From Streptomyces olivoverticillatus (GTDB taxonomy: Bacteria > Actinomycetota > Actinomycetes > Streptomycetales > Streptomycetaceae), in NCBI RefSeq assembly GCF_014203555.1, contig NZ_JACHJH010000002.1, positions 962,791 through 1,026,790 of the forward strand: a stretch of 64,000 nucleotides of DNA, read 5' to 3'. The notes beneath the pieces are model-generated. The model was not told where the DNA came from and did no database searches. It saw only the letters and a program-made list of their open reading frames with translations. Shown one piece after another: positions 58,166 to 62,411 of this stretch. How positions within the stretch are numbered: the first letter of the stretch is position 1; the number at the start of each line of letters is the position of its first letter. A program made the translations under genes and the position numbers.

Positions 58166-58477
58166 ATGGACCTGCGGGTCACGGCAGGCGACTTGGAGAG
58201 TTTCGCGCGACTGGTGCGCCGCGCCGCGGACGACACGACGGAGGCACGGGCCTACGTCGGAAAGCACGGTGCGATCGGGTTCTTCGATCAAGGCCTGTTC
58301 ACCAGGCTCATCGATCTCCACGGTGAACTCGAGGAGACGGTGACGCAGACGCTGCGACGGCTGCAGGAACTCTTGGCGGCCTCGGCCGACGAGGTCGTCG
58401 AAGCGGCTCGCTATTACCGGCGGACCGACCTCGCGGAGGCGGCGAAGATGGACGCCGTCTATCGGGGCCCGCGGTGA
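58166..58477 (+). CDS. EspC/WXG100-like type VII secretion protein
   Basis: The 103-aa product is helical with the pattern of small ESX-associated proteins: LESFARLVRRAADDTTEARA, a FFDQGLF turn, then LHGELEETVTQTLRRLQELL and ADEVVEAARYYRRTDLAEAA. YYRRTD with following acidic residues resembles the YxxxD/E secretion signal. It overlaps the next gene by 4 bases. The assignment is by pattern, not by a search. Confidence 0.65.
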   Translation: MDLRVTAGDLESFARLVRRAADDTTEARAYVGKHGAIGFFDQGLFTRLIDLHGELEETVTQTLRRLQELLAASADEVVEAARYYRRTDLAEAAKMDAVYRGPR

Positions 58478-59211
58478 CGGGCTTCCATGACGAGGCCCGC
58501 CCCGTCAGTCGGTTGACACCCCCTGCCGCTCCCGAGGAATTCGCATCGCCGCTGAAGGTGCTCAACGACGCGGGAGACCTCGTCAGCCCGACGTCCTGGG
58601 CGGCGAAGGCCGTGAGGCTCGTCTTCGAGTGCGACCCGATGGAAACGGCGGAAAAGTGGTTCGCCGGGGACTGGGAGGCGTACGCCCGATGCGCCGAAGT
58701 GTGGGGAAACCTGGGAAAGTTCTGCGCCGATCTCGCCGCCAACATCGATGCGGGCAATCGCGAACTGGACACGACGTGGGACGGCCGGGCCGCGGACGCC
58801 GCCTACGCCTACTTCCAGGCGATGCAGGGAAACCTGCGCGACATCCAGCACTCGCTGGAGGAGATGCGCAGGGAGTACCTGGTGGCGTCCCACGGCATTT
58901 GGTCGACCGCCGAGGCCGTCGGTCAAGTACTTGGGGAGATCGGCGACTGTGCGGCGACCGTGGCCGTCTCCTGGGCGGTCGGCGCCTGTGCCTCCTGGAC
59001 CGGAATGGGAGCCGCGGCCGGCTATGCGGTGGGCGCCGCGGAATTGATGCGCATGGCCGAACTCTGGGGCGAGGCGACCGCATTGGTGAACGCCCTGCAA
59101 CTCAAAATCGACGCAGCCTACGGACAGGTGGCGAACCTGGGGGGCGAAATGACCGGTGCGCTGAACGGATTCCCGCTGCCGCGATCCGCCTACGACCACC
59201 CCGCCGTCTGA
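58474..59211 (+). CDS. WXG100-domain protein
   Basis: The 245-aa product has a short N terminus rich in Pro, then about residues 65-150 a WXG100-like hairpin: LAANIDAGNRELDTTWDGRA (WDG as the W-x-G turn) followed by ADAAYAYFQAMQGNLRDIQ. A hydrophobic stretch with many Ala and Gly (CAATVAVSWAVGACASWTGM, about 165-195) follows, and the last 60 residues are helical with no recognised toxin domain. It probably travels through a type VII secretion system or partners with the 103-aa protein. ATG overlaps the previous stop. Confidence 0.75.
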   Translation: MTGFHDEARPVSRLTPPAAPEEFASPLKVLNDAGDLVSPTSWAAKAVRLVFECDPMETAEKWFAGDWEAYARCAEVWGNLGKFCADLAANIDAGNRELDTTWDGRAADAAYAYFQAMQGNLRDIQHSLEEMRREYLVASHGIWSTAEAVGQVLGEIGDCAATVAVSWAVGACASWTGMGAAAGYAVGAAELMRMAELWGEATALVNALQLKIDAAYGQVANLGGEMTGALNGFPLPRSAYDHPAV

Positions 59212-59236: not shown

Positions 59237-59557
59237 ATGCGTGAACGAGAAGTGGGACACGAGGAGTTCCTCGCCCCGGGCCGCGGTCCGTCCCGGGCCC
59301 GGGTGGTCCACGAGGCGCTTCGGCAGCTGTCCGACGGCGCGGGCGGGCCCGTCCTCAAGGAGATGGCGCGTGAAGTCCTCTCCGGCCGGATCGGTCTGAA
59401 GGACGCCATGCGCATGCGTGCATACGCCGATGAGCTCGGCGAACGCGTGGAGACCGCCTTCGCCGAGTGGGAGCGCATCCCGGCCCCCGAGCGTGAACGA
59501 CAGGTGGCACAGGCCCGCCGCTTCCTGGACACCGACGACGGACGCCACACCCGGTAA
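59237..59557 (+). CDS. Small helical protein of the WXG100 operon
   Basis: The 106-aa product follows 25 bases after the WXG100 gene with GAGGCGGAAAGG upstream. It is soluble and mostly helical: VVHEALRQLSDGAGGPVLKE, REVLSGRIGLKDAMRMRAYA and ERIPAPERERQVAQARRFLD. No family recognised. It could be a chaperone or a second substrate of the same secretion module. The 3' half overlaps the antisense tail of the shared-domain gene. Confidence 0.7.
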   Translation: MREREVGHEEFLAPGRGPSRARVVHEALRQLSDGAGGPVLKEMAREVLSGRIGLKDAMRMRAYADELGERVETAFAEWERIPAPERERQVAQARRFLDTDDGRHTR

Positions 59558-60173
59558 GGGCACCGCACCTGGTAAATGCGGCCACCCTCACCTCACCCCG
59601 TCCCCGCTCCGGGGGGGGGTATGCGTGTGTGGCCGGTCGCAACAGGTCCGCCGAGCCCGCCACCTCCGCCAGTGCCTTCGCCAGCTCCACCAGGACGCCG
59701 CGGACGCGGGAGATCTCCTCGCGGAGTTCCTGCGCGTGCTCCCAGCCCCGCTCGTAGGCCACCGGGTCCACGTCCGACGGGCGCAGCGCCTCGTACGCCG
59801 CCAGGCGGGGGTGCCAGGCGGCGAGGAGGGGGCGCAGGGCCTGGTTGAGGACCGTCACCGCCAGGGCGCCGAAGGTGATGTGGTCCGGGCCGCGGCGCGG
59901 GGCGACGTCGGGGCCGTAGCGGCGCAGGATGTCGCGGGTGGTGGCGAAGAGGCTGTAGAAGGAGGTGAGGGCCTCCCTCAGGAAGCCCTCGCCGGGGCCG
60001 AGCTCGACCGTCGAGACGCGGGTGGCCAGTTCCGCGTAGAGCTCCCAGGCGGCCTTGCGCTCGGCTTCGACCGGTTCCCACAGGCCCGTGACCTCGCCGA
60101 GCATCGGGATCGTCACCCGCACGGTGATCTGCTTCGGCCTGGCCCGCCCCGCGGCGTTGCGTATACGTCGCAT
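59355..60173 (-). CDS. Stand-alone copy of the TIR-STAND C-terminal domain
   Basis: From the ATG at 60173 (GGGGAGGAAGAUC upstream) the protein has a basic N terminus (RRIRNAAGRARPKQ), then residues about 44-180 align with the C-terminal domain of the divergent TIR-NB-ARC protein: ELATRVSTVELGPG..LREAL, then WHPRLAAYEALRP (120-132) against WHPRLAAHEALRP (652-664) there, with 55-56 residues between LREAL and WHPRL in both. As written the frame continues to 59355 through low-quality sequence antisense to the 106-aa gene. One extra base in the C9 run (59611-59619) would end it at 59593 as a 193-aa protein, which I think is the true form. Confidence 0.75.
   Translation of the reverse strand: MRRIRNAAGRARPKQITVRVTIPMLGEVTGLWEPVEAERKAAWELYAELATRVSTVELGPGEGFLREALTSFYSLFATTRDILRRYGPDVAPRRGPDHITFGALAVTVLNQALRPLLAAWHPRLAAYEALRPSDVDPVAYERGWEHAQELREEISRVRGVLVELAKALAEVAGSADLLRPATHAYPPPERGRGEVRVAAFTRCGALTGCGVRRRCPGSGGPVPPVVHARGPGCAPTRRRRSPRVRRAHRRMHACAWRPSDRSGRRGLHAPSP
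59611..59619. repeat. Homopolymer G9 tract inside shared-domain gene
   Basis: Nine consecutive G on the plus strand (C9 on the coding strand) lie right after the conserved domain. A 10th base would switch the frame to an immediate stop at 59593. Confidence 0.9.
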
Positions 60174-60257
60174 GATCTTCCTCCCCGAGCCCCCACAGTA
60201 GGGTAGGACCCGCCTGCGCGGGCAAGGGAGCGGCGAGGAAGCGAAGGAGATACGGGC

Positions 60258-62411
60258 GTGGAGGGACAGGACTCCCGTGTCTGGGACGTGTTCCTCAGCT
60301 ACAGCCGCGGCGACGCCCACCGCATCGCGCCCCTGCGCCACCGACTCCTCGCCTCCGGGCTGCGGGTCTTCATCGACGAGGTCACCGTCGCCGGGTTCGC
60401 CGGCATCAGCGACGCCATCCGGGACGGCCTGGCCCGCTCCAGGGCCCTGCTGGCCTGTTACTCCGCCGCATACCCCGAGCGGCAGGCCTGCCAGTGGGAG
60501 CTGACCGCCGCCTACCTGGCGGGTCTGCGCGAGGGCGACCCCCGCCGCCGGGTGATGGTCGTCAACCCCGAGCCGACGGCCGATCACATCCATCCTGTGG
60601 AACTGCGCGACGCGAAACACTGGCCTCTCCCGGCCGGTGAAGCGGCCCTGGACGCTCTCGTCGCGGACGTACGCGCACACGTCGCCGGCCTCACGGGCCC
60701 CATCGGAGCCACGGAACCATCCCCGGCCCCCTACTGGCTCCCCGGCCCGGCGCCCTCGCCCGCCCCCGCCTTCACGGGGCGGCTGCCCGCCCTGTGGCAG
60801 GTGCACAGCTCCCTGCACCGGCACGCCGCGCCCCTGACCACCGGTCACACCGCCGCCCGGCCGGTGCAGATCCGCGGCATGGCGGGCATCGGCAAGACGC
60901 TGCTCGCCCAGGAGTACGCGACGCGGTTCGCCGCCGCCCACCCCAGCGGCATCCACTGGCTGGCCCGCGACGCAGGCACCGGCGCCGAGGGCCCGTACGA
61001 GCCGTACCAGCCCTACGAGCAGGCGCTGCGCGCCGTCGCCGCCGCCCACGGCCTGCCGGACGGAGGCACCGCCGAGGACGTCGTCGCCCGGCTGCGCGCC
61101 CACTTCGCCCACGACGGGCGGCCCTTCCTGTGGGTCGTCGACGACCTGCCCGACCAGCTGACCACCCAGCAGGTGGCCAGGCTCTGCGCCCCGCATCCCC
61201 TCGGCCGCACCCTGCTCACCACCCGCAGCCGCCGCTACGACGCCTTCGCCACCCCCGTGGAGCTCGGCCCGCTCGCCGCGGACGAGTCCTACGCCCTGCT
61301 CACCCACGACTCCGAACCGGCCGCCGCCGACGAGCGCGCGGCCGCCGAGGCGCTGTGCGCGGCGGTCGCCGGACACCCCCTCGCGCTGGCCCTGCTGGCG
61401 TCGGCGGCCGACGACGGCTACACCGCGCTGCACGACCGCTTCCACACGCCCGGCCGCTCACTGCTGGACGTGCTCGCCCGCGGCTGTGTCCTGCCGACCG
61501 GGTATCCGGCCGCGGTGACGGCCGCCCTCGTCCGGGACGTACCGTCCGCCGGGCGCAGCGCCATGGACGCCCTCCGGCTCGCCGCGGCGTTTTCGCCAAC
61601 CCCGCTGACCAGGGACGACGCGGTGCGGGCCCTGTCGTTGGCGGCCACCGTGCCCGACATCGCCACCGCCCGGCGCCTCGACACCGGCATCGCCGCGCTC
61701 CGCGGCCGCGGCCTGCTGGTGCCCGCCGGCAGCCGCGCCTGGTCGGCCCACCCGCTGACCGTCCACGCCTGGCTGCGCCACGACCCCGAACCGGCCCGCG
61801 CCGAGCAGCTGCGCCACGCCGTGATGAAGACCCTGCGCACCGACGGCGCCACTACTCTGGGCCGCATCGGAGCCCGCCCCGGCAGGACCGGCACGAGTAC
61901 GAGGGAGCCGCAGATGAAGTCCCGGACGACCGCGCCCCTGGACAGCGCGCCCAGTGAGCTGGAACGCATGGCCGCCTTCGACATCCAGGTCGAACTCGCC
62001 ACCCGCATCGGCGTCCAGGAGCTCGCTCCGGGCAGCGGGAGCCTGCGCGAGGCGCTGGGCTCCCTGCACGCGATGTTCGAGTTCACGCGCACCACGCTGC
62101 GGCAGTACAGCATCAACCTCGCCGACCAGCCCGCCGCGCCGGGCACCCCGACCGTGCACGCGATCGCCTACGAGCTGCTGAACGGGACCCTGCGGCCGTT
62201 CACCAGCGAGTGGCACCCCCGCCTCGCCGCCCACGAGGCGCTGCGGCCCGAGGGGACGAGCCCCGTCGCCCACGAACAGTCCTGGCCCGATGCGCCCGCG
62301 ATGCGGGCGGCGCTCGCCGGGCTGCGTACGCCCTTGCTGCGGATCGTCGGTGACCTCGCCACGATCTCGGGGGCGGATTTCGGTCTTCCGCCGACGAGCC
62401 GCGCCAGCTAG
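60258..62411 (+). CDS. TIR-NB-ARC (STAND/NLR-like) protein with extra C-terminal domain
   Basis: The 717-aa protein starts at GTG after GAAGGAGA. Residues 8-140 are a TIR domain (VWDVFLSYSRGDAHRIAPLR; putative NADase Glu81 in CQWEL). Residues about 180-420 are an NB-ARC/STAND ATPase: P-loop GMAGIGKT (207-214), Walker B FLWVVDDLPD (about 290-298), RTLLTTRS and GHPLALALLA (about 372). A winged-helix-like segment follows (about 430-540), and residues about 575-710 are a domain shared with the divergent neighbour. There are no WD40 or TPR repeats. TIR-STAND proteins sense a trigger, oligomerise and deplete NAD+ in known bacterial systems; the same role here is inference. Confidence 0.88.
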   Translation: MEGQDSRVWDVFLSYSRGDAHRIAPLRHRLLASGLRVFIDEVTVAGFAGISDAIRDGLARSRALLACYSAAYPERQACQWELTAAYLAGLREGDPRRRVMVVNPEPTADHIHPVELRDAKHWPLPAGEAALDALVADVRAHVAGLTGPIGATEPSPAPYWLPGPAPSPAPAFTGRLPALWQVHSSLHRHAAPLTTGHTAARPVQIRGMAGIGKTLLAQEYATRFAAAHPSGIHWLARDAGTGAEGPYEPYQPYEQALRAVAAAHGLPDGGTAEDVVARLRAHFAHDGRPFLWVVDDLPDQLTTQQVARLCAPHPLGRTLLTTRSRRYDAFATPVELGPLAADESYALLTHDSEPAAADERAAAEALCAAVAGHPLALALLASAADDGYTALHDRFHTPGRSLLDVLARGCVLPTGYPAAVTAALVRDVPSAGRSAMDALRLAAAFSPTPLTRDDAVRALSLAATVPDIATARRLDTGIAALRGRGLLVPAGSRAWSAHPLTVHAWLRHDPEPARAEQLRHAVMKTLRTDGATTLGRIGARPGRTGTSTREPQMKSRTTAPLDSAPSELERMAAFDIQVELATRIGVQELAPGSGSLREALGSLHAMFEFTRTTLRQYSINLADQPAAPGTPTVHAIAYELLNGTLRPFTSEWHPRLAAHEALRPEGTSPVAHEQSWPDAPAMRAALAGLRTPLLRIVGDLATISGADFGLPPTSRAS
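61901..61916 (+). promoter_or_regulatory. Possible internal ribosome-binding site and start
   Basis: GAGGGAG (61901-61907) lies 6 bases before an in-frame ATG (61914-61916, Met553). Translation there would give a 165-aa protein made only of the shared domain, the same size class as the divergent gene product. Confidence 0.4.

Follow-up and report, generated by a model that had tools for sequence, protein, structure and literature searches.

In a 64,000-nucleotide stretch of Streptomyces olivoverticillatus DNA (contig NZ_JACHJH010000002.1, positions 962,791 to 1,026,790; hereafter the window), two divergent genes encode a TIR-NB-ARC protein and a smaller protein that share a domain. We refer to this domain as WHP, a working name that comes from its W-H-P motif and is taken from no database. 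The gene layout reported in a first-pass annotation of the sequence was borne out (Table 1).

The larger protein matches TIR_2 and NB-ARC in Pfam, and these domains are followed by WHP at the C-terminus. Its membership of the TIR-NB-ARC group rests on a TIR with the conserved glutamate and an NB-ARC with a Walker A motif, both of which are present. No Pfam match to TPR, LRR or WD40 repeats was found in this protein up to an E-value of 1, and WHP occupies the place of the sensor repeats. Glu81, singled out in the first-pass annotation, is kept; it aligns with a conserved glutamate of solved bacterial TIRs, which we take to be their catalytic residue. The window TIR alone has no match among PDB sequences at an E-value of 0.01. 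The best PDB matches of a profile of 18 TIRs are 7uxr (a TIR domain protein), Cat1 and AbTIR (named an NAD(+) hydrolase).

The smaller gene has a ribosome-binding-like GGAGGAA directly 5' of its ATG by inspection of the sequence. A consensus scan of positions 59900-60500, which include the intergenic region, gave no sigma-70-like promoter match. The first-pass annotation had placed the end of this gene at 59355. The reading frame does formally reach that position (272 amino acids), but the conserved small protein stops near residue 186, and about 85 C-terminal residues are not common to close relatives. In nine such relatives conservation stops after approximately VAGSADLLRPATxPYPP, and their frames end at 192 to 287 amino acids. 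Because the relatives end at differing places past the shared stretch, the last 85 or so residues probably lie outside what is conserved in this protein. This tail (approximately 59355-59615) overlaps in part an opposite-strand open reading frame at 59237-59557.

Table 1. Positions of the gene pair and of its domains in the window.
Feature	Position	Strand	Details
TIR-NB-ARC-WHP protein gene	60258..62411	+	717 amino acids, GTG start
Stand-alone WHP gene	59355..60173	-	ATG at 60173; conserved protein approximately residues 1-186
Intergenic region	60174..60257		84 bases between the starts of the two divergent genes
WHP domain of the small protein	59640..60137	-	residues 13-178
TIR domain	60288..60614	+	residues 11-119, Pfam TIR_2, E-value 7.7e-15
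Glu81 codon	60498..60500	+	conserved TIR glutamate
NB-ARC ATPase	60864..61406	+	Pfam match at residues 203-383, E-value 5.9e-7
Walker A GMAGIGKT	60876-60899	+	within NB-ARC
Linker	61818..61946	+	residues 521-563, mostly pLDDT below 50 in a weak model
C-terminal WHP domain	61947..62408	+	residues 564-717

The WHP domain

The small protein and the C-terminus of the 717-residue protein are homologous, as had been claimed from their shared motifs, with 43% identity over 152 amino acids (BLASTP, 114 bits; the E-value of 2e-36 is that of a single pairwise comparison). All of those motifs (ELATR, Glu-Leu-x-Pro-Gly, LREAL and WHPRLAAxEALRP) are found in both proteins. The shared domain had been put at about 135 residues; the sharing holds, but the length is nearer 145 to 150 residues. 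A search of the window's own assembly (93.8% complete, 16 contigs) with the small protein gave only two matches at an E-value of 0.001, one to its own gene (2.4e-114) and one to the C-terminal part of the TIR protein (1.1e-31), so the similarity of the two domains is far beyond chance.

The first-pass annotation knew the domain by no name, and neither window copy has a match in Pfam, NCBIfam, PADLOC or PHROGs up to an E-value of 1. Among 85 homologues there are weak matches to 19 Pfam families, each with at most three members and with a best E-value of 0.0013, and no match in PADLOC. Nothing better than an E-value of 0.45 was found among PDB sequences. A cyanobacterial WHP used as query matched none of 50,697 phage records at an E-value of 1e-3; among 20 pattern matches in IMG/VR, one (L037) proved to be a WHP. 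In a search of the titles and abstract openings of open-licence papers we found no domain of this kind described beside TIR genes, and WHP may be mentioned elsewhere without a name.

The WHP domain of the small protein was modelled with AlphaFold2 from 85 sequences, with a mean predicted local distance difference test score (pLDDT) of 87.9 and a predicted template modelling score (pTM) of 0.83. In this model WHP is a beta-hairpin (residues 16-22 and 26-32) plus a four-helix bundle (36-52, 65-90, 101-129 and 147-172), with a short helix at 137-142. In the weak full-length model of the larger protein the main helices of the fused copy lie at residues 567-586, 596-616, 633-661 and 679-688/690-704. 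The main helices match in both copies, but the N-terminal beta-hairpin is confined to the small protein.

Foldseek found nothing significant for the WHP model (best E-values 0.56 in the PDB and 0.097 among viral structures). VIA-align gave Z-scores of up to 8.9 with assorted helical bundles, a range that the tool rates as common; we therefore claim no fold relative, and a family outside those listed could still be one. In 96 non-redundant sequences, conservation reaches 96% or more at each of eleven positions (R52, R66, S71, R80, N110, W120, H121, E128, E141, W144 and R151). These residues are retained alike in the stand-alone, membrane-anchored and fused copies.

Both genes of the window are under purifying selection, judged from comparisons with seven close relatives for the small gene and six for the large gene. 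The nonsynonymous rate (dN) is 0.06-0.09 against a synonymous rate (dS) of 0.35-0.60 in the small WHP, and 0.08-0.13 against 0.53-0.70 in the fused WHP, giving a dN/dS of approximately 0.12-0.22 in both copies. The dN of the TIR (0.05-0.10) and of NB-ARC (0.11-0.14) is similar, and in the linker dN exceeds dS in five of six comparisons. In the clade of the window this is a settled chromosomal pair, because the close relatives (L038-L046) share the flanking genes: PAC2 and rpsA lie on one side of the small gene in all nine, and DUF6343, ogt and a GPD gene on the other in eight (L044 ends early).

Association of WHP with TIR genes

A single-motif scan of a one-genome-per-species collection yielded 79 loci (80 of 81 relatives were kept), a set weighted heavily to cyanobacteria and close streptomycetes. 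In 63 of these loci a TIR domain is found no more than 500 bp from a stand-alone WHP; the same holds for 33 of 3256 control points placed in these loci at least 3.5 kb from WHP. Without near-copies the counts are 22 of 34 (at 86% identity), 9 of 16 (70%) and 6 of 10 (60%). WHP is found beside TIRs in cyanobacteria, actinobacteria, proteobacteria, Bacteroidota and an archaeal metagenome-assembled genome (MAG); the archaeal and Omnitrophota cases are MAG contigs, in which mis-binning is possible. It is in 6 of 394 genomes drawn from the class, five of them of the window's own genus, and in 60 of 394 Streptomycetaceae genomes.

The 63 close pairs comprise 33 with WHP followed by TIR on the same strand, 27 divergent pairs, two with TIR first and one convergent pair; without near-copies (86%) there are eight with WHP first, two with TIR first and 12 divergent. 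Four of the 16 remaining loci hold a TIR in the next gene: L083, L096, L107 (a weak match, 4e-5) and L114 (ThsB_TIR). These were missed because the TIR is more than 500 bp away or of a type that escapes the profile. The others have a TIR some kilobases away, no TIR or a truncated WHP.

The adjoining genes match Pfam TIR_2 in 20 of 20 cases in a divergent set (A3), 12 of them of the fused form, and in 32 of 34 in a downstream set (A4). A3 holds 18 of the 19 divergent partner genes longer than 500 amino acids, with L050 and L052 added by hand and L063, the same as L062 in spacing and length, omitted. A4 holds 32 of 36 downstream genes, with L034 (a TIR gene not directly adjoining WHP) and L035 added by hand and L051, L061, L115 and the duplicate L072 omitted. 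NB-ARC is present in 14 of 20 members of A3, GUN4 in 18 of 34 members of A4, and TPR and WD40 in some partners. What is constant across the pairs is the TIR, and the rest of the partner protein varies. The residue at the position of Glu81 is glutamate in 104 of 106 WHP-neighbouring TIRs, the other two being gaps. About 50 of the 63 close TIR partners have no WHP of their own; the gene is fused in 12 of the 79 loci and cut by the contig end in one more. Because the same domain adjoins TIR genes in very different microbes, WHP is probably a dedicated partner of TIR enzymes.

A few neighbours are of other types. ThsB-type TIR genes lie 5 bases upstream of WHP in a Thermoplasmata MAG (L114), 41 bases upstream in Aureispira, approximately 300 bases upstream in Vibrio and 235 bases downstream in Mesorhizobium, and abut the WHP frame in a small-genome actinobacterium. 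In Sinorhizobium the scanned ThsB-type TIR is approximately 2.7 kb from WHP, and a nearer TIR is known by annotation only. A nucleoside deoxyribosyltransferase-like gene starts 1 base after WHP in L069 and a SLOG gene adjoins WHP in L130; both belong to relatives of the TIR fold (PMC7159879 in part). WHP itself is also found in longer proteins. Some copies have an N-terminal membrane segment or hairpin, recognised by a hydropathy script or by eye, and others have a C-terminal patatin-like domain (above the Pfam cut-off in Mesorhizobium, just below it in Sinorhizobium and by frame length only in Rhizobium). The idea that WHP and its TIR partner are matched in membrane anchoring was dropped, as anchoring agrees in some pairs and differs in others, and the pairs are related to one another.

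Several single loci deserve mention. In Nostoc sp. LPT (L076:3287-11566) there are three WHP-TIR pairs, each with a TIR frame beginning 3 bases past WHP. The TIR protein paired with WHP in Dolichospermum (L075:10425-11807) has a C-terminal stretch with a GFRVV-type end, which presumably resembles the variable region of diversity-generating retroelement targets. In the Thermoplasmata MAG (L114:9441-14842), ThsB_TIR and WHP are followed by frames of 430, 629 and 330 amino acids, perhaps in one operon; given correct binning this is possibly an archaeal Thoeris-like system. On two rhizobial plasmids (L182 1-12330 and L184 1-12276) several TIR genes and Nmad2-type proteins (by Pfam for one) surround a gene for a WHP-patatin-like protein. 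Thymidylate synthase, uracil-DNA glycosylase and NTP pyrophosphohydrolase are annotated in one or other of these clusters, which look like a DNA-modification-linked conflict system.

The fused form was followed in more genomes. Of 65 streptomycete regions that were fetched, 13 have a fused gene and a divergent stand-alone WHP, nine a fused gene and a co-directional one, two a fused gene only and 19 a stand-alone WHP with a TIR within 500 bp. One of the nine co-directional regions (L161) has a broken fused gene and is excluded from the intact pairs. There are 24 intact TIR-NB-ARC-WHP genes, that of the window's own genome included, and 22 of them have a stand-alone WHP nearby (14 divergent, eight co-directional); in one of these pairs (G365) an internal stop interrupts the stand-alone gene. 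A further draw from the order (391 genomes, of which 59 have WHP), overlapping the first, added seven long-frame copies, judged by frame length (635-755 amino acids) and spacing only, and all seven are partnered. In the two overlapping samples together, 29 of 31 fused genes have a stand-alone WHP within approximately 4 kb. The two-gene arrangement is therefore conserved in related genomes, in keeping with the first-pass annotation.

A tree of WHP was built from 96 of 168 rows, near-copies above 86% having been removed. In it the fused copies make up a single group with a Shimodaira-Hasegawa-like approximate likelihood ratio (SH-aLRT) support of 87, which is under the mark of 95. The stand-alone neighbours of the fused genes fall into two distant groups, one soluble and divergent, the other with a membrane hairpin and co-directional; the long branch between them has a support of 98, and the tool warns of long branches there. 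Adjoining WHP copies are not each other's closest relatives, fused and stand-alone copies forming separate groups. On this tree the fused lineage has kept a separate WHP neighbour though the kind of neighbour changed. No other finding argues as strongly for joint action of fused and stand-alone WHP.

Two loci of this lineage depart from the usual layout. In Nocardia alni (L050:9552-10534) a stand-alone frame beside a fused TIR-NB-ARC-WHP gene contains two WHP units. In the streptomycete locus L161 (3267-4163) a remnant of the fused gene joins a TIR piece and a WHP piece in one short frame, and the divergent stand-alone WHP is open.

Proposed function of WHP

We tentatively propose, with somewhat less than even confidence, that WHP is a dedicated TIR-coupling domain and that the pair in the window is a two-protein TIR immune module in which WHP docks on the TIR domain of its partner. 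Docking would hold, place or switch the TIR. The TIR-NB-ARC protein of the window would carry one WHP in cis on a flexible linker of about 40 residues, in the position taken by TPR repeats in related TIR-NB-ARC partners; a second copy would come in trans from the divergent small gene. At rest the WHP copies would keep the TIR apart, so that docking would restrain rather than activate. A trigger, probably phage-related, would displace them, after which the NB-ARC part would oligomerise and the TIR would consume NAD+. The proposal builds on the homologous domain of the two proteins, their conserved pairing, the linkage of WHP to TIRs, the intact TIR glutamate and Walker A motif and the purifying selection on both genes. 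The NADase activity, the trigger and a role in phage defence are suggested by analogy with the families to which the domains belong. A single property, the coupling of WHP to TIR, would explain every architecture: WHP alone would be a regulator, a membrane segment an anchor or an output, a patatin-like domain an output, and a WHP in cis on a TIR-NB-ARC protein would give autoinhibition with a partner in trans.

Filamentous bacteria commonly encode TIR proteins with NB-ARC, WD40, TPR or GUN4 parts; to our knowledge, little is established about how such proteins are restrained and read out. WHP accompanies TIRs in several phyla and has become part of a TIR-NLR whose separate partner persists, and such a domain would offer a handle on both questions. 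A WHP profile would also mark many pairs of a hypothetical protein and a TIR as one system.

Several observations weigh against this proposal. Removal of near-copies lowers the linkage from 80% to 65% and less, and the TIR profile behind the count of 63 in 79 loci was trained on WHP neighbours and somewhat favours them over control TIRs. In the 65 streptomycete regions the nearest TIR is 500-4000 bp away in nine, and none lies within 4 kb in 13, some of which are fragments or at contig ends. Two fused genes (L117 and L118) have no separate WHP nearby. Retention of the glutamate is not peculiar to TIRs beside WHP; it speaks for active TIRs and for nothing special to the pair, because 41 of 42 other TIRs in the same loci keep it too. 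The full-length model of the 717-residue protein is poor (pLDDT 63.6, pTM 0.46) and contacts between its domains are unreadable. Fusions of WHP to a patatin-like domain and to membrane segments are as compatible with an adaptor or receptor role as with restraint. We tentatively rank protein docking first, a receptor for TIR products second and pure tethering between WHP copies third.

As a receptor, WHP would bind a nucleotide made from NAD+ by the TIR, as in Thoeris, which we consider possible but rather unlikely. The TIR product would occupy the conserved cluster of Arg, Trp, His and Glu residues and alter WHP, and the output would come from the membrane hairpin, from the patatin-like phospholipase or, for the pair in the window, from the NB-ARC protein. 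The presence of ThsB-type TIR-only genes beside or near WHP in six distant organisms argues for this, as does the polar cluster, which is conserved in every kind of WHP. So do the copies with N-terminal membrane segments or a C-terminal patatin-like domain, since membrane and patatin-like outputs are typical of signal-driven systems. The few partners that are not TIRs, a deoxyribosyltransferase-like gene and a SLOG gene, point the same way. However, most stand-alone WHP proteins outside streptomycetes (approximately 165 amino acids) have no output domain. It is doubtful, in our estimate, that WHP is an unrecognised receptor for TIR nucleotides with interchangeable outputs across cyanobacteria, actinobacteria, proteobacteria, Bacteroidota and perhaps archaea. 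If the receptor reading were true it would define a class of TIR signalling beside Thoeris, and the TIR-NLR of the window would bear its own signal receptor, shared with a separate gene.

The first-pass annotation pictured a mechanism like that of effector-associated domains (EADs), with contact between the two WHP copies holding the small protein and the TIR-NB-ARC protein together. It is consistent with the 29 of 31 fused genes that keep a stand-alone WHP though its kind differs by lineage, with the Nocardia frame that has two WHP units (L050) and with the conserved polar positions retained in both copies. Against it, most WHP-TIR pairs have a single WHP, which rules out homotypic contact between the partners there, and adjoining copies are not closest relatives. 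Because about 50 of the 63 close TIR proteins have no WHP copy, homotypic tethering is not the general job of WHP, but it may serve the fused lineage. We judge it unlikely as the explanation of the pair.

Two further explanations have little left to recommend them. WHP could be an RNase of the HEPN kind, with the small protein as a second toxin beside the TIR, in view of the four-helix bundle and of an R-x6-H motif in helix 3 (R114-x6-H121) in most members, and HEPN families with altered motifs exist (PMC3710099). However, eight of 20 membrane WHP and three of 55 soluble WHP have Ala or Gly in place of R114. This Arg is followed by a proline (P115), whereas the residue after the motif Arg is typically polar in the HEPN domains described in PMC3710099. 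No fold match supports the relationship either, a single HEPN-MNT chain standing at rank 49 (E-value 3.1) amid assorted helical bundles. On the motif we reject this candidate, which is very improbable. An accidental neighbourhood, with WHP a housekeeping protein near TIR genes in defence-rich regions, would fit the fixed place of the locus between rpsA/PAC2 and ogt in the window clade and the 13 of 65 WHP-bearing streptomycete regions without a TIR within 4 kb, but it is disfavoured, and hardly credible, given 63 of 79 loci against approximately 1% of control points, the fusions to TIR-NB-ARC and to a patatin-like domain, and the recurrence beside TIRs in four bacterial groups and an archaeal MAG.

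Relation to known systems and neighbouring genes

The EADs and the EACC1-caspase pair are closest to the WHP pair in logic, and Thoeris is closest for the relatives with ThsB-type TIRs. The EADs of Kaur et al. 2020/2021 are described as small, mostly helical and apparently non-catalytic domains (PMC7159879, PMC8195603). WHP is likewise small, mostly helical and apparently non-catalytic, with one copy on the core NTPase (counting NB-ARC, which is not a published core, as such) and another encoded by the adjoining gene, and filamentous actinobacteria and cyanobacteria are hosts of both. The pair resembles EADs in logic, as suggested in the first-pass annotation, but adjoining WHP copies are not closest relatives in the tree. 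In addition, most TIR proteins beside WHP have no WHP, the second copy in the window stands alone without an effector (patatin-like fusions being found only in rhizobial relatives), and WHP has a beta-hairpin and a long four-helix bundle with no convincing Pfam match. No EAD is among the 19 families weakly matched by the 85 homologues, although full coverage of EADs by Pfam was unchecked.

The EACC1-caspase system is described as a small constant 5' gene paired with an effector gene whose N-terminal enzyme is constant and whose C-terminus varies (PMC7159879). The WHP pairs likewise place a small constant gene beside an effector of this build. They differ in that the enzyme is a TIR rather than a caspase or cyclase and in that WHP is not a single conserved transmembrane helix. 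The window pair has no caspase or cyclase and its small protein has no Pfam match, which sets it apart from EACC1 systems.

Thoeris consists of the TIR protein ThsB and the effector ThsA (PMC11204291). It too is a two-gene TIR module, and some WHP neighbours are ThsB_TIR by Pfam; the TIR of the window, by contrast, is a TIR_2 fused to NB-ARC. Neither window protein has a SIR2-SLOG or macro domain of the ThsA type, and in the relatives with ThsB_TIR near WHP no ThsA was found among the scanned or annotated genes, which cover part of those regions.

TIR-NB-ARC-TPR proteins (AP-ATPase/STAND) have TIR and NB-ARC in the same order, and in the 717-residue protein WHP replaces their C-terminal repeats. 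The best named NCBIfam match of this protein is FxSxx_TPR, far below the cut-off. As regards toxin-antitoxin order, where WHP and a TIR within 500 bp share a strand, WHP comes first in 33 of 35 pairs (8 of 10 without near-copies), and the window pair is divergent. The TIR-like DUF4062 NADases described in a preprint (PMC13174449) are a different system.

Downstream of the small gene the window contains two small ESX/WXG100-like genes (58166-59211) with weak matches, below the cut-off, to Pfam EspC and WXG100. They are present in all nine close relatives at 36-55% identity; the adjoining rpsA and PAC2 are more than 90% identical.

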